Of a stretch of DNA of 30,662 nt, positions 1,815-30,436 are shown in pieces (the first letter of the stretch is position 1; each line of letters opens with the position of its first letter). The DNA lies in IMG/VR virus record IMGVR_UViG_3300037087_000144, positions 1 through 30,662 of that record; one strand, 5' to 3'. A program made the position numbers and the translations under genes. Origin of the DNA: a virus. The notes below the pieces were generated by a model that saw nothing but the letters and a program-made list of their open reading frames with translations, was not told the origin of the DNA and searched no databases.

Positions 1815-1838
1815 CTCACCAAATATATTCTAGGTGAG
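1815..1838 (+). promoter_or_regulatory. Hairpin covering a ribosome binding site
   Basis: CTCACC (1815-1820) pairs perfectly with GGTGAG (1833-1838) around a 12-base AT-rich loop. The right arm is the Shine-Dalgarno sequence of the gene starting at 1842, so folding would hide it. This could lower initiation or make it depend on ribosomes arriving from upstream. The stem is only 6 bp, so the effect is uncertain. Confidence 0.4.
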
Positions 1839-3453: not shown

Positions 3454-3470
3454 GCAAATATAAATTGACT
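3454..3470 (+). promoter_or_regulatory. Candidate late promoter upstream of tail sheath
   Basis: The 97-base gap before the sheath gene contains GCAAATATAAATT. The TATAAATT at 3459-3466 differs by one base from the T4 late promoter element TATAAATA. A related GCAAAAATAT motif occurs before the first tube gene and the prohead protease gene. A gp55-like factor is encoded in this window. The same octamer also occurs inside the portal gene (22973-22980), so specificity is weak. Confidence 0.35.
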
Positions 3471-6407: not shown

Positions 6408-6436
6408 GGGAGGCTTCGGCCTCCTGTTGCTGTATT
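6408..6436 (+). terminator. UUCG-loop hairpin terminator after sheath gene
   Basis: GGAGGC (6409-6414) and GCCTCC (6419-6424) form a perfect 6 bp stem closed by a C(UUCG)G tetraloop, followed by a T-rich but interrupted tract (TGTTGCTGTATTTG). This is a typical rho-independent shape with a weak U tract. It would end the sheath transcript just before the glycosylase fusion gene. Confidence 0.75.
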
Positions 6437-6444
6437 TGAGAATT

Positions 6445-7401
6445 ATGTCAGAAGGTAATTATGAGTCGCTAGTTGTCCATTGTAAGAAATCACCTTATGA
6501 CGTTTACATAGGAAGACCATCCAAATGGGGTAACCCATTCACAATAGGTAAAGATGGCACGCGTGCAGAGGTAATAGAAAAGCACCGGCTATGGTTGATG
6601 GAACAGCCAGATCTGCTTAACTCTCTTGATGAGTTGAAGGGTAAGCGTCTTGGTTGCTGGTGTCGGCCAGAAGCGTGTCATGGTGATCTTCTGGCTATCT
6701 TGGCTAATGATGTTGAGTACCGTAAGTTGTTCATGTTCGATTGGAATCCTAATTCACTTCAGTCTTCAAAGAAGAGGAGCTTGGAAATGGACCGGAAAGA
6801 GCGTTTAGAGAAAATGCTTGGTCCTCTAGGGTTATTTGTTAAGAACTGTAGTATGTGTGTTTTGTGTAAGAACGTAGTTGATAGTTTATATAATCCGCAT
6901 GTGTTTAGCACTATGAATCCAAGTCGTTGGATGGTTGTTGGTCAGAATCCAGGGGTGAACGAATGTAAGCAGGGTGTACCGTTTGTGGGAGATGCTGGTA
7001 GGAATTTTGATGAGGCTCTTCAAAGGAATGGTTGTAGTCGTGAGGATTTTTACATTAGTAATGCAGTGAAGTGTTTTACGGTTGATAATGAGAAGCCAAG
7101 CTTTGAACATATGTCTGCTTGTCGTCCTATTTTGCAGTTGGAGATTGCGATATTGAGGCCAAGGTTGGTTATTACTCTTGGTAATGTTGCTTTTGATGTT
7201 TTCTGTCCAAAGTTGCAGATGTCTGATCATCTTGGGGAGATAGTGAGGTCTGATATATTTGGTGTTAATGTCTATCCGATCTATCATCCGTCACCACGGA
7301 ATATTAATTTGAAGGATCGAAAAGAGAAGTTCGATGCAAATATCACTGATCTCTGCAGGATGGTCTTGCACTATAAGTTGGAGTTTAATAAGGGTGTTTA
7401 G
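6445..7401 (+). CDS. DUF4326 - uracil-DNA glycosylase fusion
   Basis: A 318-residue two-domain protein. Residues 10-88 match DUF4326: GRPSKWGNPF at 23-32 and GCWCRPEACHGDLLA at 70-84. From about residue 128 it resembles the iron-sulfur uracil-DNA glycosylases of families 4/5: clustered cysteines C135, C138 and C141, the GQNPG motif (166-170), GVPFVGDAGRNFDEAL (177-192), C210 (NAVKC), C226 (ACRP), and a C-terminal YHPSP motif (280-284). The family-4 motif is GEAPG, so GQNPG is a variant that may change the substrate range. Such enzymes remove uracil or damaged bases. The ATG at 6445 was preferred to a TTG at 6427 inside the terminator tail. An internal ATG at 6787 has a strong GAGGAG site. Confidence 0.75.
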   Translation: MSEGNYESLVVHCKKSPYDVYIGRPSKWGNPFTIGKDGTRAEVIEKHRLWLMEQPDLLNSLDELKGKRLGCWCRPEACHGDLLAILANDVEYRKLFMFDWNPNSLQSSKKRSLEMDRKERLEKMLGPLGLFVKNCSMCVLCKNVVDSLYNPHVFSTMNPSRWMVVGQNPGVNECKQGVPFVGDAGRNFDEALQRNGCSREDFYISNAVKCFTVDNEKPSFEHMSACRPILQLEIAILRPRLVITLGNVAFDVFCPKLQMSDHLGEIVRSDIFGVNVYPIYHPSPRNINLKDRKEKFDANITDLCRMVLHYKLEFNKGV

Positions 7402-7735: not shown

Positions 7736-7750
7736 GCAAAAATATCTTGA
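7736..7750 (+). promoter_or_regulatory. Candidate promoter motif before first tail tube gene
   Basis: GCAAAAATATCTTGA lies 36 bases before the tube start. It resembles GCAAATATAAATT before the sheath gene and GCAAAAATATTTA before the protease gene. The tube Shine-Dalgarno (GAAGGAG, 7757-7763) follows. The shared motif suggests a common promoter or processing element, but similar AT-rich strings also occur inside genes. Confidence 0.3.
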
Positions 7751-7771: not shown

Positions 7772-8296
7772 ATGCCAGGATTCATAATTGGTGGTACAGG
7801 CGGTCCGGGTCCAAACCACATGGTCGAGACTCGAAGAAAGCACCGCTGGGTGTTTGAGACATTGGGACAAGCCGCTGCGGGTGAATTCAAATCACCTATC
7901 TTGCTGCTTCTGAAGGAAGCCAGCAGGCCGCATCCCACGGTTGAAGAGCCTGAGATGCACCACAACCAGGAAAAGGCTTACTTCGCTGGTAAGCATTCCT
8001 GGGAAGCCTGTAAGCTGGTCTGGTACGATGGTGAACAGCCGGATGATGTCGCCGAGGAGCTATGGAACTGGCTCAATGGAATTGTTGACATCAAGAACGT
8101 GACGGTCAAGCTGCCCAGCCAGTACAAGAAGGAAGGCAAGTTACAGATGCTCAAGGGTGATGGCACGCCCAATGAGACTTGGCAGATGTTTGGTTGTTGG
8201 TGCCAGGATATCAATTGGGGTGCTCTGGATTATACCGATACAGAGATTCAGCTGGTTGAGGTAACTATGAGATACGACCGTGCGTACCGAATGTAA
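7772..8296 (+). CDS. Tail tube protein (gp19-like), major copy
   Basis: A 174-residue protein of the T4 gp19 tail tube family, which polymerises as hexamer rings inside the sheath. The start (MPGFIIGGTGGPGPNHMVET) followed by RKHRWVFE, and the C-terminal TDTEIQLVEVTMRYDRAYRM, are typical of gp19-like proteins, and the length is close to T4 gp19 (163). It lies downstream of the sheath, as 18-19 in T4. AAGGAG precedes the ATG. Codons are C/G-rich like the sheath, unlike the paralogue that follows, so this copy is probably the main tube subunit. Confidence 0.88.
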   Translation: MPGFIIGGTGGPGPNHMVETRRKHRWVFETLGQAAAGEFKSPILLLLKEASRPHPTVEEPEMHHNQEKAYFAGKHSWEACKLVWYDGEQPDDVAEELWNWLNGIVDIKNVTVKLPSQYKKEGKLQMLKGDGTPNETWQMFGCWCQDINWGALDYTDTEIQLVEVTMRYDRAYRM

Positions 8297-8308
8297 TCGG
8301 GGGCGCGT

Positions 8309-8866
8309 ATGCCAGGTTTTGTCATTGGTGGTGCTGGGGATGGTCCAGCCAATACCGTAGAAACATTACGTCAGCATCGCTGGCTCATCCAACGCATGGG
8401 TCCTATTGGGCAAGCAAATCGATTAGTGGCAAGAGACATAACTTTACCGGAATTGAGAATTGAGCGTCAAGAGATTTTGGGTGGAATGATATGGTATAAG
8501 TTCGCCAAGGCAGTTAAATATGACGATGCGCAGGTAATCTTTTATGATACTGGTGACTTCCTAGGTGAAATTCAAGAATGGCAGAATGCAGTCTTCCAAT
8601 TAGCATCTGGTATCGGAACTCATTCACCTAGTGGTGGGTATAAGCAAGAATCTAAGTTTGATCTGTTGGATGGATCAGGGGCAACCATTAACTCATATAC
8701 TCTGAAGAATTCATGGCCAATTAATATATCACAGGGAAAGCTCACTTATACGGATACTGAGATAAAGATTGTAACTGTGACTTTGGCATATGATTGGGCC
8801 GAGGGCATAGATACGGCTAAGAACCCATCGGTTCCATCAAGTACACCTAATATCAATCTTGAGTAG
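8309..8866 (+). CDS. Second tail tube paralogue (gp19-like)
   Basis: A 185-residue paralogue of the preceding protein: MPGFVIGGAG at the start, TVETLRQHRWLIQRMG at 17-32, and LTYTDTEIKIVTVTLAYDWA near the C-terminus align in order with the first copy. It adds a Pro/Ser/Asn C-terminal tail of about 20 residues (AKNPSVPSSTPNINLE). Codons are more A/T-ending than in the first copy, suggesting lower expression or another origin. It may form a special ring at the tube end, a baseplate-proximal adaptor, or an alternative tube subunit. It is followed by the gp26-like gene. Confidence 0.82.
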   Translation: MPGFVIGGAGDGPANTVETLRQHRWLIQRMGPIGQANRLVARDITLPELRIERQEILGGMIWYKFAKAVKYDDAQVIFYDTGDFLGEIQEWQNAVFQLASGIGTHSPSGGYKQESKFDLLDGSGATINSYTLKNSWPINISQGKLTYTDTEIKIVTVTLAYDWAEGIDTAKNPSVPSSTPNINLE

Positions 8867-9909: not shown

Positions 9910-10086
9910 ATGGAGCAGTCATTCCTCCTGAAGTATCATGGGGGATATGACTTACTGGAGCAGGCTAACATGCCTGCCGAAGAACGCGCTTGGAATATTA
10001 GGCGTATTGATAAGGAAATTAAAGATACGAACAAGAGACAGCAGGAGTCGAAACAATCCCAGCCGCATCATCCGAATATTAAATGA
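9910..10086 (+). CDS. gp51 / tail chaperone-like small protein
   Basis: A 58-residue protein from the ATG at 9910. The pattern SFLLKYHGGYDLLEQANMPA followed by EERAWNIRRIDKEI is the same kind seen in small proteins encoded after gp26-type genes in T4-like phages and in tail assembly chaperones (a short aromatic-Gly helix, then MP-x-x-x-R-x-W). The frame is open upstream to 9817 inside the gp26-like gene, and the ATG lacks a good Shine-Dalgarno. Translation may therefore depend on coupling or frameshifting from the upstream gene. Its stop overlaps a further possible start at 10083. The role is inferred from position and pattern. Confidence 0.6.
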   Translation: MEQSFLLKYHGGYDLLEQANMPAEERAWNIRRIDKEIKDTNKRQQESKQSQPHHPNIK

Positions 10087-10121
10087 CAATTCAAAAATAT
10101 CTTAGGTTTGGAGTGCTACTA

Positions 10122-11114
10122 ATGTCGCGTCATCATCATGACGATGAGTGCCAAGAAGTAACGGCGAATCCATTGCCACGAGTGAGCGGTCGTCTTGGAA
10201 GCCCGATTGACCTGAATATTACATTTTACAAGGATGGGATTCCTACTGACCCATGGGCAATACGAAAAGTAACTATTTATAGATCAGCAGTTCAACCAGA
10301 GAATATAATCGCAGAATTTCCGATAGTATCAATATGCGAACCAAATTACCCATTTCCGCTTGCACGTGAACAGTGTGAACCACCACCAGACCCATGCCCG
10401 TGTCCACACACAGAGGGCACTGAGCCGCCGATTCGCATTAAACCAGGTATCTTCCATCTGATATGGGACGTGCCGACAGTTGGGATACCTACACCAGATA
10501 TCTTTTTCGATGTGTGGAGTTTTTTCCCGGTTGAACCACCTTGTCCACCTTGTGGGTCAGATGGAACAGAACCTCCGTGTACAGAGCCACCTGAACCAGA
10601 AATATGCCCAGAGTACGAGGAGGGAGAGGAGCATCATAGGCACCACCATCATCACCATCACCACAAATGTGTTGATGATGAAACGCTGATGCAGCATGTG
10701 TGTCAGCGTTTCTGGTTATATCCAGATAGTTATTATACCGATTCTGGCCTGGAAAACATCCGTCTTGGTTTTGAGGCGATGGATGATAAATTTACGCAGC
10801 CAGAAGTCAGAACTCTAGAAGTTGGTATAATGCCGCTTCCATTGTATGATTATAATTATAATTTGGTTGCTCCTATCATCCCCAATCTTAAGGCGACGAT
10901 ATCGATCATGACTGATCAATGTGAGATTTTGATCTGTAATGAACCTATGAAGATTGGGATTAGGCAAGGAACATTCCGGTCTAACCCATTCGTTCTGCAA
11001 TATCTCTTTAACACAATGCGTGTGTTGCGTGGTTCATATAAGTATCAGGTCACATTAAGGCTTCCGAATGGCGAGACCAGAACTAGCCCTCGTTTCGCGT
11101 TACAGGTGTCATAA
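10122..11114 (+). CDS. His/Cys/Pro-rich hypothetical virion protein
   Basis: A 330-residue protein of unknown family. The N-terminus is MSRHHHDDEC. Residues 15-90 form a beta-rich domain (GSPIDLNITFYKDGIPTDPW). About 90-165 are Cys/Pro-rich, with CPCPH, PPCPPCG and PPCTEPPEPEICPE. Then comes an acidic EYEEGEE stretch and a natural histidine run HHRHHHHHHHHK (10632-10667). A second folded region follows, including a Tyr-rich LPLYDYNYNL segment, and it ends in GSYKYQVTLRLPNGETRTSP, like an Ig-type beta strand pair. The ATG at 10122 is preferred because GGAG lies eight bases upstream; an ATG at 10083 overlaps the previous stop. The His and Cys clusters suggest metal binding. Confidence 0.7.
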   Translation: MSRHHHDDECQEVTANPLPRVSGRLGSPIDLNITFYKDGIPTDPWAIRKVTIYRSAVQPENIIAEFPIVSICEPNYPFPLAREQCEPPPDPCPCPHTEGTEPPIRIKPGIFHLIWDVPTVGIPTPDIFFDVWSFFPVEPPCPPCGSDGTEPPCTEPPEPEICPEYEEGEEHHRHHHHHHHHKCVDDETLMQHVCQRFWLYPDSYYTDSGLENIRLGFEAMDDKFTQPEVRTLEVGIMPLPLYDYNYNLVAPIIPNLKATISIMTDQCEILICNEPMKIGIRQGTFRSNPFVLQYLFNTMRVLRGSYKYQVTLRLPNGETRTSPRFALQVS

Positions 11115-11797: not shown

Positions 11798-11823
11798 CGT
11801 ATTTAAACTTTGGAGGAATTCAC

Positions 11824-13996: not shown

Positions 13997-14048
13997 ATTA
14001 CAAGGGGTGTTGTGTCTTCATACGGGGATACCACAGGTGATAGCAGAG

Positions 14049-15029
14049 ATGACTCAACACAGCAAAAAGAGTAAGGGACTTCGAGACGATGGGTCTCCGG
14101 GGAATGAATCTCCACCAGTTCCACCACCGATAATCATTCCAACGCCGCCATCTGATCCACCTATACCACCACCAGTGATTGACTTTGAAAGACGAGAAGG
14201 AGAACTAGCAAAGAACCACTATTTTGACAATGAGATGGTTGAACTGTTACTATATGACTACCTGGAGGGAGCATGCGTAGATGTTGCCCTTCGCGACAAG
14301 ATAATGGACCAGGCAGCAGAACTTATCAGACAGACGATCAAGACACACAACCTCTCACAGATATACCCAGGACATGATGACTCTTCAATAGGAGATCTTT
14401 TTCAGGTTGCCTGGTGCCAGATCGAATCAGTGTTATACAAATACGAAGCTCGCCCGCATTGTGTTTGCTGCTATAACGCTCTTAGACCGAACGAATCTCT
14501 TATTGTAGATGAATTCGTGTTCGCTGAGGAGGTTCTGAGGAAATTCAAACGTTGCCCGGTCTGTAGGGCTAAACTCATACGCAAGAATCTGCATTATAAG
14601 GGAAAGTCGAAGGTGTTCAATCTATGGTCACAGATAGCTCGTACTGTTATTTTGGCTCATATTAAGAAGGAGAATCGTGACCGGAAGAATGGGCCAGTAT
14701 TCCAGACACATCTGGAGCATAGGATTGTTCCGAAGGGGCATGTGTTGGATAGATTCTTGACCGAGGCCGAAGAGATTTGCAAATATAATGAGGATTACTT
14801 GTGTTTGCTAGAGGCGATCAAGCAATTATATGAGCAAGATGAACGGCCATATGAGGGTTTGATCGCCAAGCTGGTGGAGAGATCAGGGCTTTCGAGAACG
14901 ATGGTCACAGGGTTCCTGAAGATGCTACGTCTGAGGAGTCATGATTTCTCAGACTCGCCTGTGAATGAGGAACATGAGACCATGCGTCGAAAGAATACTG
15001 AGATCACTGATAACTCGGAGCAAGAATGA
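14049..15029 (+). CDS. Late sigma factor, gp55-like, with zinc insertion
   Basis: A 326-residue protein with the sigma region 2 signature of T4 gp55, which guides host RNA polymerase to late promoters. Residues 115-132 (GDLFQVAWCQIESVLYKY) match regions 2.1-2.2 and 186-213 (SKVFNLWSQIARTVILAH, then IKKENRDRKN) match regions 2.3-2.4, like the gp55 segment ending in FVQRIKKERKE. Between them an insertion of about 50 residues carries C138/C141 and C169/C172, a likely zinc ribbon. A helix-turn-helix-like LIAKLVERSGLSRTMVTGFL lies at 271-290. Residues 20-45 are Pro-rich. T4 gp55 has 185 residues. The start is uncertain: ATG 14049 follows AGGTGA by eight bases, but the frame is open to 14007. It overlaps the next gene by ATGA. 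Confidence 0.65.
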   Translation: MTQHSKKSKGLRDDGSPGNESPPVPPPIIIPTPPSDPPIPPPVIDFERREGELAKNHYFDNEMVELLLYDYLEGACVDVALRDKIMDQAAELIRQTIKTHNLSQIYPGHDDSSIGDLFQVAWCQIESVLYKYEARPHCVCCYNALRPNESLIVDEFVFAEEVLRKFKRCPVCRAKLIRKNLHYKGKSKVFNLWSQIARTVILAHIKKENRDRKNGPVFQTHLEHRIVPKGHVLDRFLTEAEEICKYNEDYLCLLEAIKQLYEQDERPYEGLIAKLVERSGLSRTMVTGFLKMLRLRSHDFSDSPVNEEHETMRRKNTEITDNSEQE

Positions 15030-15694: not shown

Positions 15695-16358
15695 CAAGAA
15701 GATCAACACAGATCTGGTTGCCCTCTTAGGTAATGCTACGCCAGCGCAAAGTGAGCAACCAGAAGATCCCCAAGAGGCGCAATCTGAAGCAGATCTCAGA
15801 GCAGAATCACTCATTGACCAAGATGACGAAGAGGACGAACAAGCATTAGGAAATGGCAATGGTGTAGATGAACCTCCACCGAAAGTAATCTCATCTGAGA
15901 TAATAGAACCAGAGTTAATAGCGGCTTCTGATATACAAACAATACCACCATCGTCTGACCTTATGGCACAGCCGAATCAGGAAGATGTAGCAGGCGTCAA
16001 GGTCTTACTCGGTGTGTTTGGGACAACCGTACAGGATATAGTCCAGAATTATAAGAAAGACCGTGAACAGATTGATAAGGCTATTGAATATTTTGAAGCA
16101 GAAGTTAGATCAGCCCAGAAGTCCGGAGCGAAATTATCACCAGCATTCACTGAAGCCTGGGCCAAATTATTACAAGCGAAGGCCGAGATCAACATGAGCG
16201 CTACCTCAAGTCTGGACTCGATAGCTAAGTTGATCTCTGCCGGTAAGGGTAATGATCTAGTTATTAATTTGAATGGTAATATTCCGAAGGGTAATCTCAA
16301 CCTTGAAGCACTTCTATCTCAACCGGCGTATGAGGATGAGAGAGTGCGGCGACAATGA
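15687..16358 (+). CDS. Small terminase subunit, gp16-like (probable)
   Basis: A 223-residue protein directly upstream of the large terminase, overlapping it by ATGA. Residues 1-100 are acidic and low in complexity. Residues 103-190 form the helical core expected of T4 gp16 (IVQNYKKDREQIDKAIEYFE, then SPAFTEAWAKLLQAKAEINM), a coiled-coil oligomerisation unit with a gp16-like P-x-x-x-E-x-x-x-K-L helix. The C-terminus is Asn/Gly-rich. In T4 the small subunit regulates the gp17 ATPase and helps initiate packaging. The assignment rests on position and helical layout rather than on a catalytic motif, so moderate confidence. Confidence 0.6.
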   Translation: MSDKKINTDLVALLGNATPAQSEQPEDPQEAQSEADLRAESLIDQDDEEDEQALGNGNGVDEPPPKVISSEIIEPELIAASDIQTIPPSSDLMAQPNQEDVAGVKVLLGVFGTTVQDIVQNYKKDREQIDKAIEYFEAEVRSAQKSGAKLSPAFTEAWAKLLQAKAEINMSATSSLDSIAKLISAGKGNDLVINLNGNIPKGNLNLEALLSQPAYEDERVRRQ

Positions 16359-19270
16359 CGACTGAGCTTGTCAATCTAGAACAGATGAAGCAGCTCTTAT
16401 TGCGTTGCCAGTCTAGCTCCATGTTCTTCATCGAGAATTTTTGCAGAGTCCAGCATCCAACAGCTGGTATTCTTCCATTTAAGCTGTTCAAGTATCAGAG
16501 AACGTCGTTGAAAGCTTTCTTAACCTATCGCTGGAACATTTATAGAAAATGTAGGCAATGCTTTCGTGGTGATTCGATGGTGTGGACACCATTTGGCCCT
16601 AAGCGTATTGATTCGATTAAGGCTGGTGACTTGATTTATTCGTTGGATGAAATTACTAATTCTTTGGTGATTGTTCCTGTTGAATCTGTACATCATAATG
16701 GTACATCTGATAATTGTGTTGAAGTTAGGACAAAGACAGGGCATAGATCAATCTGTACTCTTGATCATGAATTTAAGACCAAGGATGGGTATAAGCCTGT
16801 CGATATGCTTACTCTAAATGATTGTTTAATTGAAGTAAATGACGTTCAACGATATGGTCGTTCTGCAAATCAATCTGAAGTGATATTGTTGGCTTATTTC
16901 TTGACAGATGGATATTGTGGGAATAAAGCCCATCATTTTACTAACACTAGATGGAAATATTTGTTGGAATTTCAGAAACATTATGAACTTAGGTTTGGTG
17001 TAAAATTGCCGATTAAACCACATAAGAATTCTGGTTTTGGCTGCGAGAATGCGTCTAGATTATATAGTTATAACAAAAATTGTAGAACTTGGTTAAAGGA
17101 ACTAGGTATACTCGGATTGACGAAATCCGCGAAGGTTATACCTGACATTGTATTCACTTGGGATAATGATTCGATTGCCCTATTAATTAATAGAATGTTC
17201 GCAGCTGATGGTTGGTACTCTGGCGGTCACTGTAATGAGGCTGGGATAGGGCAGATATCAATTAGAATATTGTACCAATTAAGACAGCTGCTTACAAGGT
17301 TTGGAATAAATGCACAAGTGTATCCAGCGACTGATGCTAGTATCCCAAAATTGAGGATAATGGGAGGGCGTGATTTTGACTTATTTACCAAATATATTGG
17401 AATTTTTGGAAAGGAACAAAGACAAGAAATTACAAAGGGATTTTTCTTTAATAGAAAAAGAGGCGAATTGAAATCGATTACACGAATATCTGGAAATCAT
17501 GATGTTTACGACCTTACTGTTTCTCCTAATCATAATTATATCGTTGATGGCACTGTAGTTCATAACTGTGGTATTTCTACATTAGCTGGTGGATTTGTTC
17601 TGTGGTATGCAATGTTCTTCCCACATAAGACGATTCTGATTGTGTCGAAGCGTGATCTTGACGCTATGGCTTTCTTGAATAAGAATGTCAAGTTTGTATA
17701 CGAGCATCTCCCGGAAGAATTTAAGGCTATCTATGGTAATCCACCACCGATCTGGAATGAACACACCGTGGGATTCGCAAATGGTTCTGTGATCAAGAGC
17801 TTGACCTCCCATAAGGAAACACTGCGATCCAATTCAGCATCGTTGAATATTATTGACGAGTCCGCATTCATGCCTCACATGGTGGAGATGTGGTCAGCCG
17901 GTCAACAGACACTGGTTCACGGTGGATCGGTTATCGTCATCTCGACTTGCAATGGCTTTGACGCCTGGTATCAGCCTACTTTTGAGGATGCGATTAACAA
18001 GAGAAATGACTTCAATCCTATTGTAATCAATTGGTGGGATATGGACTGGGAGATCAAGTACAGGGATGAGCTTTCTGGTAAGGAATGCAAGATTGCTCCC
18101 ACTGAGGGGATCAGGAAGTGTGAGACCAAAGAAGAGCTTGAGAAGTGGGGTCCATATTATAGCCCGTGGCTTGAAGAACAGTATCGACAATTACAATTAA
18201 AAGGTGAGGTGCACAAGTTCAGACAAGAGGTGCTGGCAGAGTTTGTTGGCACTGGTAACACAGTCTTGGACCGTGTAGCATTGTTAGCGATAGAGAAGCA
18301 GGTTGATGATAATTATTCAGTGGTTGGGCGCGTTGGTTATATCCACCCAGTCACTGGGGAACGGTTGAATATTGACTTTGAGAATCAGCTCTGGATCTGG
18401 AAGAAACCAGTGAAACCAGAACCTGATCTTATTGAGAATGGCCGCGTCATCCGGCCAGGTAGACCAGGACACACCTACAGTATGGGTGTTGATATCGCTT
18501 CTGGTGAGGCTGATGACTTCGACGCGATTGAAGTTATTGATACCAACACTCATGAACAGGTTGCTGAGTTGTACTTGAAGGTCCAGCCTAATGTTCTGTT
18601 GATGATGATTGACTACATTGGGCGCTGGTATAATGGCGCGTATTGTGTTCCTGAGCGTACCGGTATGGGTATTCCGGTGTGCCAAGATTTATATGCGACG
18701 ATTGGTTACTCTAATCTTTATCGGATGGCTCTTCCTAGTGGTAAGCGTAGTAAAAAGGTTGGATTCCCGACTTCGCCGGTATACAAGCCGACTCTGAATA
18801 AGGCATTGGTTGATATGCTGGGTGAAGATGGTGTACACGTGTACAGCCGTCGTTTACTGCAACAACTATACATTTACATCCATACTGGTAAGAATAAGAC
18901 AGGGCATGTTGAAGGTCCAGGTAATCATAGTGATTTGTCAATTGCTACCGCACTGGCTCTGGTCGGCATTGGGGAGGCAGTTCAGGCCGATACCACTTCG
19001 ATGGTTCCGATGCGGAGCGTTCCTACTGATATGCCTGATCCGAAAGTGGTGAAGCCTAGTGAGATTATGGAATTAGCCTCTAGTGGTGGTATGAGCGCAT
19101 TGATGCCGATCATCATTGGCCCGCAAGGGAATGATCGGAGAGTCTTGTCTCCTCAGGAAGAGATTATGCAGTTTGCTGCTCAACTGGGTGGGTTACCTAT
19201 AAATGCTAGGGGTGCTAATCCTGCTTTCATTCAGCGTAAGCATATAATTCAATATCCACATCAGTCTTGA
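16355..19270 (+). CDS. Large terminase (gp17-like) with internal intein
   Basis: A 971-residue precursor; removing residues 69-404 leaves a 635-residue extein, near the size of T4 gp17 (610). The ATPase has a deviant Walker A, KCRQ (65-68) joined after splicing to CGISTL (405-410), and Walker B LNIIDE at 497-502. The C-terminal nuclease keeps acidic residues in GVDIASGEADDFDA, VPERTGMGIPV and NHSDLSIATALAL. The enzyme pumps DNA into the prohead through the portal and cuts concatemers. In the Walker A the usual GK[ST] is replaced by G-I-S, with the lysine more likely K65, a layout seen in several terminases. The start overlaps the small-terminase stop (ATGA). Ser/Pro-rich C-terminal tail. Confidence 0.93.
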   Translation: MTTELVNLEQMKQLLLRCQSSSMFFIENFCRVQHPTAGILPFKLFKYQRTSLKAFLTYRWNIYRKCRQCFRGDSMVWTPFGPKRIDSIKAGDLIYSLDEITNSLVIVPVESVHHNGTSDNCVEVRTKTGHRSICTLDHEFKTKDGYKPVDMLTLNDCLIEVNDVQRYGRSANQSEVILLAYFLTDGYCGNKAHHFTNTRWKYLLEFQKHYELRFGVKLPIKPHKNSGFGCENASRLYSYNKNCRTWLKELGILGLTKSAKVIPDIVFTWDNDSIALLINRMFAADGWYSGGHCNEAGIGQISIRILYQLRQLLTRFGINAQVYPATDASIPKLRIMGGRDFDLFTKYIGIFGKEQRQEITKGFFFNRKRGELKSITRISGNHDVYDLTVSPNHNYIVDGTVVHNCGISTLAGGFVLWYAMFFPHKTILIVSKRDLDAMAFLNKNVKFVYEHLPEEFKAIYGNPPPIWNEHTVGFANGSVIKSLTSHKETLRSNSASLNIIDESAFMPHMVEMWSAGQQTLVHGGSVIVISTCNGFDAWYQPTFEDAINKRNDFNPIVINWWDMDWEIKYRDELSGKECKIAPTEGIRKCETKEELEKWGPYYSPWLEEQYRQLQLKGEVHKFRQEVLAEFVGTGNTVLDRVALLAIEKQVDDNYSVVGRVGYIHPVTGERLNIDFENQLWIWKKPVKPEPDLIENGRVIRPGRPGHTYSMGVDIASGEADDFDAIEVIDTNTHEQVAELYLKVQPNVLLMMIDYIGRWYNGAYCVPERTGMGIPVCQDLYATIGYSNLYRMALPSGKRSKKVGFPTSPVYKPTLNKALVDMLGEDGVHVYSRRLLQQLYIYIHTGKNKTGHVEGPGNHSDLSIATALALVGIGEAVQADTTSMVPMRSVPTDMPDPKVVKPSEIMELASSGGMSALMPIIIGPQGNDRRVLSPQEEIMQFAAQLGGLPINARGANPAFIQRKHIIQYPHQS
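16559..17566 (+). mobile_element. Intein with LAGLIDADG homing endonuclease
   Basis: A 336-residue in-frame insertion (precursor residues 69-404) splitting the large terminase Walker A motif between Q68 and C405. Block A is CFRGDSMVWTPFGPKRIDSI with nucleophile C69; block B is CTLDHEF with T135-x2-H138; block F is VYDLTVSPNHNYIVDGTVV; block G is HN with C+1. These are the residues needed for standard Cys-type protein splicing. The middle holds two LAGLIDADG-like helices, ILLAYFLTDGY (177-187) and LINRMFAADGW (277-287), so it is a full homing intein rather than a mini-intein. The insert is visibly more A/T-rich than the flanking exteins, consistent with recent acquisition. Confidence 0.93.
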
Positions 19271-20904: not shown

Positions 20905-22146
20905 TTGATTGGGATTTAACCAAGGCTAAATTTGGTGATGTTGATTTAAGTCAATTTAGGCCGAGAGTTATTGTTCGTTGTGATAAATGTAATAAGGAGT
21001 CGATTTTTACAATTAGAGTTAAGAGTCGACTTAAAAATAGTCAATTGTCATGGCTTTGTTATAAATGTGCTTGTAATAAGGGTGATGTAAAGAAGACGCA
21101 TAGTAAACAGATGTCAGCGCAATGGGAAAATCAGATTTATTATAATGAACGTTCTAATTCTAGTAAGGAATTATGGCGTGGTGATGATTTCAAGAAGTGT
21201 CATCATGAAGCTGTACAGGAACAAGATTCTCGACAGAAATGTTCAGATGCAGCTAGATTGGCTTGGCAAAATCCAGATTATAGGGAGAAACATGCAGTTG
21301 CTTTGGCTAAGCAGCTAATTAGAACTCCTAATACTGAGAAAAGAGTTCGTCAGATATTAACTGATTTAGGGGTGCAGTTTGATACCAATGTGGTGGTTGG
21401 GCCATATACTTTTGATATAGGAGTGAAAAGAGAAAATAAACCATATTTGTTACTTGAAGTTAATGGTAATTATTGGCATACGCGTCCTTATGTTATGCGG
21501 AAAGATGCGGCAAAAGCTGATTATATCAGTAAATTTCAACAATATGAGCTTAAAACAGTTTGGGAACATCAACTTTTTGACATAATAAAAGTTAAACAAT
21601 TATTGTCACGTTTTGTCGGTAATGAGATACCACAATTTGTGCGTCTTGATTTATCACAAATTAATTATAGCACTATTACTGATAGAAAACAACTCAATGA
21701 ATTTTTTGGTAATTATCATTATTTAGGATCAGCTGGTCGCTGTGGTATGGCTGTAGGTGGTTTTTACAATGAGCAATTGATCTGCGCTGCGATATTTGCC
21801 CATCCTACTAGAAAAGAGAGTTATATTAATATCTGCTCATCAAAAGAAGTTTATGAATTGACCAGATTTTTGATTCATCCTAGTTATCATATACCAAATC
21901 TTGCGTCTCATTTCTTATCCATCTGCCGGTCATGATGGGACAATCTATCTGGCGGCTAATTGGAGTTTTGTAGGAGAAACTAAACCATCATATTTTTATA
22001 TGAATGATGAGGGCTGGATAATGCACAAGAAGACTCTTTATAATAGAGCCAAATCGTTACACTTGAAAGAAGCAGAATTCGCCATACAATACGGATATAA
22101 GAAGGTTCACACCCCTCCTTTAAAGAAATTCATCAAAAATAGATAG
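20901..22146 (+). pseudogene. Vsr/EDxHD homing endonuclease + Mom-like domain, broken
   Basis: A 344-residue frame (20901-21935) followed by the rest of the same protein in the +1 frame (from about 21913 to 22146). An N-terminal zinc-type unit has C27-x2-C30 and C53-x2-C56. A DPDYREK-type repeat (WQNPDYREK, 122-130) follows. The Vsr-like nuclease has E146, D172, H193 and D202 (EDxHD pattern; LLEVNGNYWH). The C-terminal 100 residues (FFGNYHYLGSAGRCG, then YELTRFLIHPSYHIPNLASH) resemble a Mom-like acyltransferase domain that continues as GHDGTIYLAANWSFVGETKP in the other frame. Roughly 15-20 residues expected between the two parts are missing, so a small out-of-frame deletion is likely. The gene is AT-rich like the intein. 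The nuclease half could still be made. Confidence 0.65.
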
Positions 22147-24016: not shown

Positions 24017-27000
24017 ATGAGCAACACGATCACAAATCAGAAACAGCAGCCTACATCCGTAGTCGAGATGGATGCTGGCAAGTTTCTGCACATGATCAAC
24101 GTCGGCGCTCAGAGCCAGGTCACCCTCTTTGCTGAACGCATCGCCAAGCTTGGCGAAGAAGTCGGTCAGCATTGGAGGTTAGTGTCACTGGACAGCGCTC
24201 AACTCCTCTTCGAGGATGTTGGTAGCAACATCTACTACGTGGCTGACATTTCGAAGATCAGCCGGAATGGTGGCCCGAAGCGGGTTAAGATAGACAACAT
24301 CCGCCAAGTCCGGGTGGTCGAGTCCAAGAAAGAAGGACTCTTCAGAAAGAACCTTGCCGAACTGGTTGATGCAATCAACGAAGACAACACCAAGCAGGCT
24401 GACGACATTTTCAACCGTATCGCAGCCCAGCGCTTCCGCTCTTGCGTGATCCCTGAGAACGGCCTGGTCACTACTCGTGACCGCACCATCCGCCGCATTC
24501 ATGTCGCCAGCTCAGTCCTAGATGAAGGCACCAAACTGGAGATCGTCAACGCCATCCGCGACATAGTGAAAGATGGTGTGAAAGTCACCCGTGGTCGGAT
24601 CGTTGAGGCAATCTATTCTGACAAGCCTGTCATGATCCCGATCAGCGAGATGACCCGTCGCCGGGTGGTCGCCCGCTTCCTCAAGGAACAGGCCAAGAAT
24701 GCCTATAAGTATGAAGGCTTCCAGGCCCGTGTTCACGACATCGCAGCCCTCATCTCGCAAGATAAGGTTGAGGAAGCTGTGCAAAATTCCGCCGAGTTCC
24801 TCATGGAAGAGCAGCAGTTCTGCATGCTCGACCTGCGTGAAATGCAGGAACTCGCCAACAACGCTCTCGCCACTATCGGTTGCATGAATGCAACATTGGC
24901 TGACGATGTTGGCAGGCTCCTGTACAGGACCAACTGCCGCGTCAACTACAACGCAATCATCGAAGAGTGGCAAGAGACCGCTCGTCGCTCGGAATATGCT
25001 CCGCTCGTGGAGAATGTCCGAATGTTGGGCGAGTCCAAGCTGTTTGAGGCTGATTACCAGTCATTCCTGCACATGGTCTTCAACGAGGATGTCTCCACGC
25101 AGGAGGCCAAGGCCAAGATTTATCTGGCAGCGTTGAAGGACATGAAGAACATTCTGACCGGCAGTGAGAAGGATGCCGATCTCGCCAGTTCTCTGGACAA
25201 TTACATCACCCGCCTTGAGAATATCGGCAATGAGCCAGACGATGCCACTCTCATGGAGGTTGAGGAACTGGTTGCTTCCGTCAGTGAGGGCCTCCTGAAG
25301 AACCTGTCCGATCTGAAGGATTACGATCAGGTCCCGCAGCCGAAGGCTACTCCTCCTGAGGAATTTGGTGCTCAGAATTTGGCTGGTGAGCCGGGTGAAG
25401 GCGAAGAAATGATCGGTGGAGGCGGTGGTGCTGGCCCAGCCCTTCCGCTTGGTGAGGCTGAAGAGCCTGGTGCCGAGGAAGCTGCTGCTCCTGGTGAGGG
25501 AGAGGAACCTCCTCCGGGTGAGGAAGAGATCCCCGTTGAAGGCAAGAAGGCCCCCGGTAAGGTGGTCACTGAGTCCAAGGGCATCGCCCAACTGGAAGCT
25601 AAGGACCTCAAGTCTGAACTGCTCGAATGGCAGAAGAACGGCGAAAGGTTCTTTGCTGAAGATGGCGTCGAAAGTTGCACTGCCCATCTCAAGGCTTGCA
25701 TCAAGCGTGCCAATCTCCTCAAGGAGAGTGACCTGGCCACTGGCTTCAATAAGCTCCTGGCCGAGAATACTCCACTGAAGGACGTGGAGGTTGAGCCTTA
25801 CCATTACGAGGCGACACGGGACATCAAGATCAACCGCAACTACGGCCTGCACGAAGCACGCGATGAGGGTATGGAGGCCAAGAAGGGCGGTACTTCGACT
25901 GGTGGCCTGGGCATGCAGAAGATCCAGGGCAAGAATTGTGCAATGGGCAAGGCCGGTGAGAAGGATCAGAATGTTTCCGACTACGGCCATTCCAGTGCCA
26001 TCCTGAAGGGTAGCGGGCAGAAGATCAGCGACAAGAAGGTTGCCCCTCCTACCAAGTGTGAGTCAATGGACTCTGCTGGCAATGCAATTTGCCCTGAGTG
26101 CCACGGTCACTTTGAGCCTGCTTCTTGCATGACTGAGAGTGGTGCCCTCTGCCCTGAGTGTGGTGCGGATATGGGTGCACAGCTTCTGGAAATGCTTTCG
26201 GTCGAAGAGATCAAGGGTTGCGGTCACAAGATGGATCGGGTCAGTGATGGCAAGGGTGTGGCTGCTACTACTCTGGGTAAGAGTGATGGTCGCGGCGGTG
26301 GTACAACGGCCCAGTCCGGTTCGGTGGGTGGTAAGCAGCGCATGGACCGGATCAGTGATGGTAAGGGTGTGGCTGCTATTTCTTCCCAGCAGAGTGATGG
26401 CGCTAAGGCTGGCGGCAAGAAGGATGGGATGGAGGGGCAGGAAGGTAAGGGTGTTGCCGAACTGCGTCAGCCTGCCAATCAGGGGATGCGCCCGATTGGT
26501 TTGAAGAAGACTGCGGTTAGCCCGAAGCTCCGGGAAGGCAAGGAGATTAGTGAGGGTACTCAGATTCAGGTCACTAGCACTGAGCCTGGTGAGGGGTTGA
26601 ATGATGTGACGTTCAACACCGAGCGTCCGATTGACCAGGTTGTGGCTGGCATTGCTGATGCTATGGCTCAGGAGCCTGGCGATATCGTTGCCGGTGCTGA
26701 TGTTGGTGGTCCAGAGGTGCCGGTGGGTGAGCCTGGCGCTGAGGGTGAGCCGCCAGTTGGCGGTCCTCCGGGTGATATCGGTCCTGAGGAGATTGGGGCT
26801 GGTATGGAGGAAGAGCCAGGCGCTGGTGGGCCTCCGATTGAGGAACCGGGTGCCGGTGGACCTCCTATTGAGGAACCGGGTGCTGGTGGGCCTCCCCCTG
26901 AATTCGGTGGTGAAGGTGCTGGTGAAGCCGAAGAGGAAGAGGAGGAAGAAGAGGAAGAGGCCGCAGAGGGTGAAGGCGGTATCAAGGGCGGTGCTGACAT

Positions 27001-27634
27001 TGAAGAGAAAGAGGAAGAGGAACCTGAAGGGGATAAGCCTGAAGGCGGCATAAAGGGCGGTGCTGGATGCATGGGGAAGAAGGCATGTGAGAAGTGCGGC
27101 AAGGAGGAATGCACCTGCCCCTGCGAGAAATGTGGCAAGACTGAGTGCACCTGTCCTAAGAATGAGGATGCTGGTGCCGAGGGTGCCCCCATTACGGAAA
27201 AGAAGATCAAGGGTGTCACTAGCGATGGTCGCAAGTTCAAGCTGAAGATCAGTAAGAAAGAAAAGAAGGAAGGTGAGGAAGAGGAAGAGGAAGAAGAGGA
27301 AGAGGCGGAAGTAGAGGAAGAGTCCAGGACGGCTGAAGGTCAGAGCATCGAAGAGCGCCGTGCTCCTCCCAAGGAATTCCAGTTCAAGAAGAAGGGTGAT
27401 AAGGGTAAGAAGGAAGAGGCCGGAGAAGAAGCTGAAGAGGCTGGTGAGACCGTGAAGGAGGATGAGGATGTCACTACTCCTCAGGGTGAAGATTACACCA
27501 GCGAGAAGGCCGCTCGCAAGGATGGCGGTGAGGGGATTGAACCCAAGAGTGGGAAAGAGATGAACCCGAAGCCAAAGTTCAAGAAGAGCGATGGCAAGTC
27601 GGGCGATGCACCAGCTAGACCAGTAGGCAAGTGA
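24017..27634 (+). CDS. 1205-aa acidic, Cys-containing protein in the head core slot
   Basis: A 1205-residue protein of no family I recognise, placed between portal and prohead protease where T4 has the small core genes 67 and 68. Residues 1-440 are folded and mostly helical. Residues 440-520 and 850-1205 are low-complexity, with Glu runs, Gly/Pro repeats and Lys-rich stretches. A zinc-like cluster lies at C692/C695, C704, C712/C715. A 37-residue repeat beginning MDR[VI]SDGKGVAA starts at 739 and 776. A 10-residue EEPGAGGPPI repeat begins near 932. A tandem CEKCGKxECTCP pair lies at 1024-1047. Codons are C/G-ending like the sheath, suggesting high expression. A scaffold, internal head or decoration protein is possible. 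AGGGG precedes the start. Confidence 0.8.
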   Translation: MSNTITNQKQQPTSVVEMDAGKFLHMINVGAQSQVTLFAERIAKLGEEVGQHWRLVSLDSAQLLFEDVGSNIYYVADISKISRNGGPKRVKIDNIRQVRVVESKKEGLFRKNLAELVDAINEDNTKQADDIFNRIAAQRFRSCVIPENGLVTTRDRTIRRIHVASSVLDEGTKLEIVNAIRDIVKDGVKVTRGRIVEAIYSDKPVMIPISEMTRRRVVARFLKEQAKNAYKYEGFQARVHDIAALISQDKVEEAVQNSAEFLMEEQQFCMLDLREMQELANNALATIGCMNATLADDVGRLLYRTNCRVNYNAIIEEWQETARRSEYAPLVENVRMLGESKLFEADYQSFLHMVFNEDVSTQEAKAKIYLAALKDMKNILTGSEKDADLASSLDNYITRLENIGNEPDDATLMEVEELVASVSEGLLKNLSDLKDYDQVPQPKATPPEEFGAQNLAGEPGEGEEMIGGGGGAGPALPLGEAEEPGAEEAAAPGEGEEPPPGEEEIPVEGKKAPGKVVTESKGIAQLEAKDLKSELLEWQKNGERFFAEDGVESCTAHLKACIKRANLLKESDLATGFNKLLAENTPLKDVEVEPYHYEATRDIKINRNYGLHEARDEGMEAKKGGTSTGGLGMQKIQGKNCAMGKAGEKDQNVSDYGHSSAILKGSGQKISDKKVAPPTKCESMDSAGNAICPECHGHFEPASCMTESGALCPECGADMGAQLLEMLSVEEIKGCGHKMDRVSDGKGVAATTLGKSDGRGGGTTAQSGSVGGKQRMDRISDGKGVAAISSQQSDGAKAGGKKDGMEGQEGKGVAELRQPANQGMRPIGLKKTAVSPKLREGKEISEGTQIQVTSTEPGEGLNDVTFNTERPIDQVVAGIADAMAQEPGDIVAGADVGGPEVPVGEPGAEGEPPVGGPPGDIGPEEIGAGMEEEPGAGGPPIEEPGAGGPPIEEPGAGGPPPEFGGEGAGEAEEEEEEEEEEAAEGEGGIKGGADIEEKEEEEPEGDKPEGGIKGGAGCMGKKACEKCGKEECTCPCEKCGKTECTCPKNEDAGAEGAPITEKKIKGVTSDGRKFKLKISKKEKKEGEEEEEEEEEEAEVEEESRTAEGQSIEERRAPPKEFQFKKKGDKGKKEEAGEEAEEAGETVKEDEDVTTPQGEDYTSEKAARKDGGEGIEPKSGKEMNPKPKFKKSDGKSGDAPARPVGK
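26231..26399 (+). repeat. Imperfect in-frame repeat, two copies
   Basis: Two similar segments of about 59 bases start at 26231 and 26342, 111 bases (37 codons) apart, both encoding MDR[V/I]SDGKGVAA followed by a Ser-Asp-Gly segment. Differences are mostly at third codon positions, so the duplication is old and kept under selection for the protein. Confidence 0.75.
26810..26899 (+). repeat. Three tandem 30-base coding repeats
   Basis: Three head-to-tail 30-base units (26810-26839, 26840-26869, 26870-26899) encode EEPGAGGPPI, EEPGAGGPPI and EEPGAGGPPP. Third-position changes separate the copies. The Pro/Gly-rich repeat is likely disordered. Copy number could vary between related phages by slippage. 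Confidence 0.8.
27086..27157 (+). repeat. Tandem 12-codon cysteine repeat
   Basis: Two adjacent 36-base units encode CEKCGKEECTCP and CEKCGKTECTCP. Each has four cysteines spaced C-x2-C-x4-C-x-C, enough to bind one metal ion each, or two together. The copies differ at several bases, mostly silent. Confidence 0.8.
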
Positions 27635-28310: not shown

Positions 28311-28336
28311 TCTAGGCTCAACCGTTCTCCTCATGT

Positions 28337-28349
28337 GCAAAAATATTTA
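28337..28349 (+). promoter_or_regulatory. Candidate promoter motif before prohead protease
   Basis: GCAAAAATATTTA lies 31 bases before the protease ATG and matches GCAAAAATATCTT before the first tube gene at 10-11 of 13 positions. The strong AGGAGG ribosome binding site follows. The shared motif suggests common control of virion genes. Confidence 0.3.
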
Positions 28350-28367: not shown

Positions 28368-29078
28368 ATGCCAATTGCTGAACTAGGCGCACGAAAACTC
28401 CAATTGGATCGCGAATATATCGCCCAGACTGGTGATATCCCAGAAGGCGCTCAACTTATCCAAGACTCGATGCCACTCAAGATCACCCAGAAACAGTCTA
28501 TTCTACGCGAGAGCGTGAATGGCAAGAAAACTCCTGTACTCGAACTCACCGGCATCTTCCAGAAAGCTGATGAGAAAAACGCCAATGGCCGAATCTACCC
28601 ATATAAGGTCCTGAAGGAAGCAGTTGACCAGATGCAAGAAAGCATCAAAGCACGTGGTACAATGGGAGAATTCGACCACCCCACAGATGCCAAGATTCAC
28701 ATGGATCGCGTCTCTCATCTTATCACTCGTCTTTGGATGGATGGTAAGATTGTATACGGCAAGATTGAAGTGATTAATGATGATCGCAGCCCGTGTGGAA
28801 GCCTCTTGTCTTGCTATATTGACCGTGGCATTCAGGTTGGAGTCTCTTCACGTGGCGTGGGTGACATGGAGATTGTGATGCATGAAGGCGAGGACTGCTA
28901 CGAAGTCCAGCCTGGATATGCTATTGTTACCTTTGATGCTGTTGCTGAGCCTTCGGTCAGGGATGCCAAGCTGAAGCGCCTGAATGAGTCGCTCCAGCGG
29001 CGCGTATCTCCGAAACAGCTTCGTGAAATGCGTGAGAAGCTTCTTCTGCAAGCAGTTAGCAGGATGTTTGGGGGATAA
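28368..29078 (+). CDS. Prohead core protease (gp21-like)
   Basis: A 236-residue serine protease of the T4 gp21 type (T4 gp21 has 212), which cleaves scaffold and capsid proteins during head maturation. Landmarks are NANGRIYP (71-78), MGEFDHP with catalytic-type H104 (99-105), DRVSHLITRLWMDGKIVYG (113-131) and GVSSRGVG with nucleophile-type serine S160 (158-165). The ATG at 28368 follows AGGAGG by seven bases; a GTG at 28335 in the same frame was rejected. The portal lies upstream as in T4, but the usual scaffold and capsid genes (22, 23) do not follow here. Confidence 0.92.
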   Translation: MPIAELGARKLQLDREYIAQTGDIPEGAQLIQDSMPLKITQKQSILRESVNGKKTPVLELTGIFQKADEKNANGRIYPYKVLKEAVDQMQESIKARGTMGEFDHPTDAKIHMDRVSHLITRLWMDGKIVYGKIEVINDDRSPCGSLLSCYIDRGIQVGVSSRGVGDMEIVMHEGEDCYEVQPGYAIVTFDAVAEPSVRDAKLKRLNESLQRRVSPKQLREMREKLLLQAVSRMFGG

Positions 29079-29090
29079 GACCGTAGATTT

Positions 29091-30155
29091 TCAAAATGAC
29101 GTACGCAGATAAGGTTCTACGAATTCAAGACCATCTCTTAGAGTCGGTCTCTCTTTGAAGAGATAAACTGCATATCCACCATGTCCACCGCCACAGTATT
29201 TTCTGGCAATCTCACCAAATGTAGGCAGTGAGATCATTTCCTCTTCAAGTTGAGCATCGTAGGACATGTTGATGGCTGCGGCTAGCATCGTTAAGCATTG
29301 TGTTTTGACTGCATCTCGTGCAAGTATACCAGCCCTGTGTATGAGTGAATAGTTCCGTTTGAGATCAACAAGATCTGGTGTAACGTGTGTTTGCTGTGTC
29401 CAGAGGATTGCCATTTTCTCCTTCAAGAATTCTGGATTTACCTTAAATTCTAATACAGGTCTCGGACCTGAGCGCCAGACGCATAATCCAGTTTCGTGGA
29501 TGATAGCTGGGTCCTGCCAGCCGACACCTAGCTTCAATTCTGAGTCTACACCATCATTCCCGCTGAGAATTGAAAATGCGGCTGACCCTCCAAGCCCGCT
29601 GCCGATCCTATATGGCCATTCTTCAACTGAAACCAGAGGCGAGATTGCACAATTTACGATATAGCCTCCCTCTATTGCATATTTTGGGACATCTAGCCAT
29701 CCTCCCGCAAAGTCGATCCTAAGAGGTACATGGCTTGGTGCTTTTACCCATTTGACAATCTGTGAGGTGCTGATTTTTTCGTAGTTCAATGTCTTCGGTA
29801 ATACGACGTAATTGATATTATGCTGTTTACATAATTCTTTCTTTTCCTCGCCATATCTGTCGTCTTCAGTGACTGCTAGGATATCTGGTCTTATTCTTAG
29901 TAATTCACATTTGAAATCGAATCCTAGTTCTGGATCTTTCCCTATTACAACCTCGTTGACCATGTTTAGTGATTTGAGGAGATGGATCTTGTGCTGTAGT
30001 GGTATTGAGGGTCTGCGGTGTTTGTGTTTCCAGAGAACTTCGTCAGATGCCACAGATACAATGAGATAATCTCCGAGGGCTTTTGCCTGTAGGAAGAATT
30101 CAACGTGCCCTCCGTGTAGGATATCATAGCAGCCTGATACGAAGACTTTCTTCAT
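29091..30155 (-). CDS. Nucleotidyltransferase - GHMP kinase fusion
   Basis: A 354-residue bifunctional enzyme on the minus strand. Residues 1-135 are a cytidylyltransferase-like domain (RfaE/HldE C-domain or TagD type): SGCYDILHGGHVEFF holds the HxGH motif (H14, H17), and ISTSQIV at 128-134 matches the family ISTT motif. Residues 139-354 are a compact GHMP sugar kinase: PLRIDFAGGWLDVP (144-157), GSGLGGSAAF (185-194, the phosphate loop) and CGGGHGGYAVYLF (321-333). Together they would phosphorylate a sugar and join it to a nucleotide, as in heptose or fucose activation. The kinase part is shorter than usual (about 215 rather than 320 residues). Start ATG at 30155 overlaps the upstream stop (ATGA). 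Convergent with the protease gene. Confidence 0.85.
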   Translation of the reverse strand: MKKVFVSGCYDILHGGHVEFFLQAKALGDYLIVSVASDEVLWKHKHRRPSIPLQHKIHLLKSLNMVNEVVIGKDPELGFDFKCELLRIRPDILAVTEDDRYGEEKKELCKQHNINYVVLPKTLNYEKISTSQIVKWVKAPSHVPLRIDFAGGWLDVPKYAIEGGYIVNCAISPLVSVEEWPYRIGSGLGGSAAFSILSGNDGVDSELKLGVGWQDPAIIHETGLCVWRSGPRPVLEFKVNPEFLKEKMAILWTQQTHVTPDLVDLKRNYSLIHRAGILARDAVKTQCLTMLAAAINMSYDAQLEEEMISLPTFGEIARKYCGGGHGGYAVYLFKERPTLRDGLEFVEPYLRTSF

Positions 30156-30436
30156 TTTTGTCCCCCGATCAGGGCTTTGGCTAGCCAACTGATTAGCTTG
30201 CTGGTCAGTAAGAACTGTCTTGGTTTGAGTTCTTCCTTCAACCATTTGGAGACATTAGACCAGTTGTCACCAAACAGGTATTTGATGTTGACGTCGCTCC
30301 AACAGTCATAATATATTATTGGTGGTGGTCCTCTGTAGGGTAGAACGGTAGCCGGGACTGGCTGACATCCACCATTGTATGGACTACAGTTGCATGTTAT
30401 GTTGTAGCCACATCTTGGACATATGAATGGAGCCAT
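30152..30436 (-). CDS. Small zinc-type hypothetical protein (94 aa)
   Basis: A 94-residue protein on the minus strand. The N-terminus MAPFICPRCGYNITCNC holds C7, C10 and further cysteines, a likely zinc ribbon. A Pro-rich segment (VLPYRGPPPIIYYDCW) follows, then a basic helical tail with a Trp-Leu-rich end (KLISWLAKALIG). The start at 30436 is supported by GGAGGTGG just upstream; an in-frame ATG further upstream is less likely. It overlaps the sugar-enzyme gene by ATGA. Function unknown. Confidence 0.65.
   Translation of the reverse strand: MAPFICPRCGYNITCNCSPYNGGCQPVPATVLPYRGPPPIIYYDCWSDVNIKYLFGDNWSNVSKWLKEELKPRQFLLTSKLISWLAKALIGGQK

Follow-up and report, generated by a model that had tools for sequence, protein, structure and literature searches.

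The window, a 30,662-nucleotide stretch of viral metagenome DNA, is a T4-like late gene region in which a sigma-like gene lies between an upstream UvsW-like helicase gene and a downstream gene for the terminase large subunit; genes for the tail sheath, tail tubes, portal and protease are also present. The sigma-like open reading frame runs from an ATG at 14049 to a stop at 15029, and a longer version beginning with a GTG at 14007 is likewise open. Its family comprises about 47 loci, all in viral metagenome contigs (sizes up to 395 kb), encodes proteins of approximately 240–330 aa, and is seen here in contigs of uncultivated T4-like phages only. With four family members as tblastn queries, none was found in 50,697 GenBank phage records, and a scan of genome contigs returned zero relatives. 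Tail sheath proteins 51–69% identical to that of the window occur in 11 of 20 records, and among cultured phages the closest sheath belongs to Microcystis phage Mel-JY01 (39% identity over 41% of the query). The features of the sigma-like gene, all on the plus strand, are as follows.

14049..15029 (+): whole sigma-like gene, 326 aa, with about 47 family loci in viral contigs
14049..14219 (+): proline-rich N-terminal tail, residues 1–57, unconserved and probably disordered (pLDDT 44–72)
14220..14231 (+): YFDN motif, residues 58–61, with N61 invariant
14229..14444 (+): first part of sigma region 2 (2.1–2.2), residues 61–132, from conservation, model and structural match
14445..14606 (+): insert in the 2.2/2.3 loop, residues 133–186, a predicted beta stem and Cys4 knob that at most resembles rubredoxin or RING
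14460..14471 (+): C138-x-x-C141, the first of the two cysteine pairs
14553..14564 (+): C169-x-x-C172, the second of them
14613..14720 (+): long helix 189–224 (regions 2.3–2.4 and beyond), with FNLW at 190–193, from the AlphaFold model
14739..14777 (+): helix 231–243, second arm of a gp55-like helix-loop-helix, from the model and structural match
14790..14933 (+): C-terminal domain with helices 248–263, 271–279 and 283–295, including a predicted helix-turn-helix at 271–295

By itself, the window protein could not be credibly matched to anything in Pfam, PHROGs, NCBIfam, the PDB sequences or GenBank phages, and family profiles have no credible match among PDB sequences. Matches to ClpS, FATC and Xpo1 (phmmer, Pfam, PHROG, NCBIfam) were at chance level and were discarded. 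The AlphaFold model, built from 29 sequences and confident at residues 61–215 and 231–295, has the region 2 fold of the sigma-70 family. Among the Foldseek candidates, its top solved-structure match, at Z 12.2, is the T4 gp55 chain of the gp55 open complex (7d7c_F), in agreement with the earlier note, which had proposed a gp55-like sigma region 2. The alignment covers 119 residues over model positions 58–232, approximately the number that lie outside the insert. Almost all matches ranked after gp55 are sigma factors, and region 2 of sigma-E on −10 DNA (4lup) aligns with the model over 92 residues at 2.3 Å. Taken alone, the Foldseek search against the PDB gave no match under an E value of 0.16.

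Since a Z score of about 12 can be reached by chance in helical folds, support from sequence matters. The Pfam Sigma70_r2 model matches relatives that lack the insert (L054, E 6.8e-4; L053, E 2.7e-3), and in one genome search with this one model a family member from G015 scored 21.8 bits versus 14.5 for T4 gp55. The best family score, 19.8 bits (21.8 in the genome search), lies under the curated cut-off of 24, as does that of gp55, an accepted sigma factor (14.5 bits). A profile–profile comparison with gp55, which had been suggested as a check, was run with hhalign against eleven gp55 proteins; the alignments were collinear through regions 2.2–2.4 but fell short of significance (pairwise E values of 0.10 and 0.15). 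No match to PHROG 234, the gp55 family, was found in the contigs; the window family is gp55-like in its predicted action, yet not filed within PHROG 234. A sigma match to phrog_351 in relatives was weak (best E 0.012) and was set aside.

By inspection, N61 of the YFDN motif may correspond to gp55 N13, itself invariant, which lines the pocket for the −9 base (PMC7892883). In region 2.2, D116 and L117 are invariant and Q119 is nearly so, and by inspection these residues appear to fit the DLxQ of sigma-70 region 2.2. The fourth helix of gp55 is much longer than that of sigma-70, and a helix-loop-helix has been described (PMC7892883); the model contains both, as helices 189–224 and 231–243, with the gp55 alignment extending to residue 232. 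Beyond region 2 and these helices, the resemblance to gp55 includes a Y-x-D/N-N-like motif close to the N-terminus, a neighbourhood of T4-like structural genes and predicted single-box late promoters. In contrast to gp55, which has 185 aa, members of the family are longer, carry a C-terminal helix-turn-helix and, in some, a Cys4 knob, have no significant sequence match to gp55, are associated with the box CAAANATA rather than TATAAATA, and show no clear clamp-binding tail. From its sequence and predicted structure, the window gene probably encodes a gp55-like late sigma factor, with late-gene specificity and polymerase contacts to match.

Region 2 is interrupted by an insert of about 54 residues between LYKY at the end of region 2.2 and FNLW at the start of region 2.3 (57 residues lie between the two motifs). 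The earlier note had described an insert of about 50 residues with two cysteine pairs at this place and had stated that T4 gp55 has no such element; both observations hold, and at the corresponding position the gp55 alignment and structure have just the short H3–H4 loop (PMC7892883). Two cysteine pairs occur in all 18 knob-bearing sequences (the window counted), which are 37–63% identical to the window across the insert segment. Three of the cysteines align in 18/18 and the fourth in 17/18, the second pair of L067 being wider (CPNKKC). Such a pattern is not a product of chance, and the four conserved cysteines, of the kind that serve as metal ligands, suggest a putative Zn-binding Cys4 domain. 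Predicted alone, the knob forms two strands with short helices; no known structure resembles it with confidence (best Z 3.0), and its net charge is positive in 16 of the 18 sequences. Rubredoxin and RING cysteine knuckles share with it two CxxC pairs approximately 28 residues apart between two beta strands, but the similarity is too weak to classify it (Z 2.9 and 3.0), and the knob differs from them in being net basic and in lying inside a sigma loop.

Thirteen relatives have no insert, and their region 2 is uninterrupted (for example L007, L014 and L017). On a family tree restricted to columns occupied in 80% or more of the rows, and thereby excluding the insert, the knob-bearing rows require two changes and fall into one or two clades; the AU test does not reject a single origin (p-AU 0.32). 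The length of the knob varies. L024, L057 and L060 carry a cysteine-free insert of about 60 residues in the same 2.2/2.3 loop; it is unrelated to the knob and apparently an independent insertion.

The predicted fold continues beyond region 2. Helices 271–279 and 283–295 are modelled with high confidence as a helix-turn-helix, in line with the extra segment suspected earlier at residues 271–290, and a domain of this type follows region 2 in every member examined. Sigma70_r4 matched none of 22 C-terminal domains, so that identity with region 4 is not demonstrable by sequence; alignments with full-length sigma-E and sigma-S extend to residues 298–311, with large rmsd. The gp55 family has a hydrophobic-acidic clamp-binding motif at the C-terminus; in the window family most tails are short with an acidic character, some of them containing IDFDEE or YNIDDEDW, and the window protein ends in EITDNSEQE. 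Extracytoplasmic function (ECF) sigma factors such as E. coli sigma-E (1or7, 4lup) share the order of region 2 followed by a helix-turn-helix-containing domain, and the insert lies at their specificity loop. They differ in that the C-terminal domain of the family is unmatched by Sigma70_r4, no −35-like element is seen, and the long helix 189–224 is gp55-like. We know of no such knob in ECF sigma factors. Unlike its known relatives, the window protein is predicted to combine a metal-binding-type knob and an extra DNA-binding-like end domain in one chain.

A putative late promoter box was identified by pattern counting, which was used because, in several genomes without the knob, ribosome-binding sites dominated EM motif finding or its results stayed near the shuffled level. 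All 16,384 gapped 8-mers were ranked over 389 intergenic stretches that lie upstream of genes in the window and in 12 related contigs. CAAANATA ranks first of the 16,384, with 59 sense and 17 antisense occurrences against a shuffled mean of 6.6 and maximum of 13. It occurs in the window eight times on the coding strand versus once on the opposite strand, and the exact box precedes the tail sheath gene in 10 of 11 genomes whose sequence there has otherwise diverged, one of them with 59% GC. In G008, a contig without the sheath gene, it is not enriched. The boxes assigned to genes in the window are listed below.

1820..1827 (+): CAAATATA box, 22 nt before the open reading frame at 1842
3455..3462 (+): CAAATATA box, 53 nt upstream of the tail sheath gene
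7737..7744 (+): CAAAAATA box, 35 nt upstream of a tail tube gene
10092..10099 (+): CAAAAATA box, about 30 nt before an ATG at 10122 (the listed start at 10083 would cover the box)
22134..22141 (+): CAAAAATA box, 29 nt upstream of the portal gene
28338..28345 (+): CAAAAATA box, about 30 nt before the head protease ATG at 28368 (the listed GTG at 28335 would cover the box)

The late box expected from T4, TATAAATA, had been the one named earlier; it has zero occurrences in the window, is unenriched, and was rejected. The cognate late box is probably CAAANATA, as judged from these counts. We infer that the window protein is its reader; several related phages also carry other sigma-like genes whose products could read the box. 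A second enriched pattern, GTATNTAA, is found in intergenic sequence of the window (for example at 11799) and of related contigs (24 sense and 16 antisense occurrences, 3.9 in shuffled sequence) and possibly marks another promoter class.

These data bear on several other explanations of the locus. An unrelated helical phage protein with a helix-turn-helix and a zinc finger might produce the weak sequence-profile statistics of the window protein itself; this is very improbable, given that gp55 heads a list of top structural matches made up almost entirely of sigma factors, and that in relatives lacking the insert the Sigma70_r2 match equals or exceeds that of T4 gp55. A sigma factor with a non-late role, serving a different gene class while another phage sigma reads CAAANATA, is less far-fetched but still unlikely. 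Additional Sigma70_r2 proteins are indeed present in G003, G008, G013 (two), G014, G015 and, weakly, G019. However, they are of several unlike types, none was found in the fragments G001, G004, G007 and G017, the contigs of these four carry both CAAANATA and the window sigma family, and the best structural match of the window protein is the T4 late sigma.

With regard to the knob, the earlier note had suggested a broadened or altered promoter recognition, such that phages with the knob would have extended late promoters. The insert coincides with the ECF specificity loop (PMC6411747) and its charge is mostly basic, as this proposal would have it, but CAAANATA ranks first both in genomes with the knob and in those with no insert (second in the single genome with the other insert). 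Moreover, no further promoter position is conserved at 27 knob sites or at 24 no-knob or other-insert sites, and neither a −35 nor an extended element is conserved at the same sites, although both sets are small. Because the top box is the same with and without the knob, altered promoter reading by the insert is unsupported and is considered quite unlikely. A possibility of more weight, albeit a tentative one, is that the knob has no DNA role and serves to dock a partner specific to the phage or the host, such as a co-activator, an anti-sigma factor or a polymerase domain. Its confinement to one or two clades, its variable length, and the unrelated insert at the same place in another lineage (L024, L057, L060) would fit such a function, against which it can be held that no docking partner gene was identified and that gp33 and a T4-type clamp were not found in the contigs.

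The reading preferred here is that of a phage sigma-70-family factor of the gp55 type, which probably redirects host RNA polymerase to late promoters consisting of a single −10-like CAAANATA box. Region 2 would bind the clamp helices of the polymerase and open the box, the long helix and helix-loop-helix would work as in gp55, and the protein would take over the host enzyme to turn on the phage particle genes. A phage RNA polymerase beta subunit was not found, which makes the host polymerase the likely partner. In ECF sigma factors the 2.2/2.3 loop acts as the specificity loop, where it captures a flipped −10 base, and it is disordered in sigma-H, probably because sigma region 1.2 is lacking (PMC6411747). 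The knob would be a metal-stabilised outgrowth of this loop. We infer that it most likely braces the loop and/or contacts the non-template strand, upstream DNA or polymerase, with no added sequence preference.

The helix-turn-helix fused at the C-terminus may make contact with the beta flap or with upstream DNA, the task of gp33 in T4, and may thereby replace a separate co-activator. T4 gp33 (PHROG 254) occupies the flap as region 4 does, and the C-terminal domain is proposed to have this role in the window family; gp33 differs in being a separate protein in T4 and in having no sequence match in the related contigs. Neither gp33 (phrog_254) nor a T4-type clamp (PF02916, PF09116) was recognised in these contigs, which are fragments, while the gp33 and PF02916 models do recover T4's own genes. 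A co-activator different from that of T4 is possible.

T4 late transcription is the textbook example of replication-coupled gene control. A review of the system takes up why no fused late sigma factor exists or has been found (Geiduschek and Kassavetis, PMC2988020). The present family is a natural candidate for one, with and without the knob, together with a predicted cognate box. Tentatively, it could represent a gp55-like region 2 joined to a flap-binding gp33- or region-4-like domain, with the loop rebuilt, depending on the lineage, by the metal knob or by an unrelated domain. More generally, the versions with no insert, with the Cys4 knob and with the other insert offer a ready comparison of what a sigma specificity loop tolerates.

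Several further features were observed in the family and the window. Six of the sigma genes (L023, L059, L066, L067, L069 and L070) contain inteins in region 2.3, where they split the promoter-melting motif between FN(L/M)W and S-Q; L031 is almost identical to L059 but has no intein. A sigma factor bearing the intein is presumably inactive before splicing. L133–L136, L138 and L139 are mutually unlike Sigma70_r2 proteins in related phages, and L137 is a weaker match. The terminase large subunit of the window (16355–19270) likewise contains an intein, with a LAGLIDADG-type domain. At 6427–7401, a DUF4326 domain is fused to a uracil-DNA glycosylase superfamily domain, and two tail tube paralogues follow in succession at 7772–8866. 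The product of the gene at 24017–27634 is 1205 residues long, has a high content of Gly, Glu and Pro, contains cysteine pairs and matches no family. Finally, a long gene on the minus strand (29091–30245), surrounded by plus-strand genes, has a cytidylyltransferase-like domain near its N-terminus.
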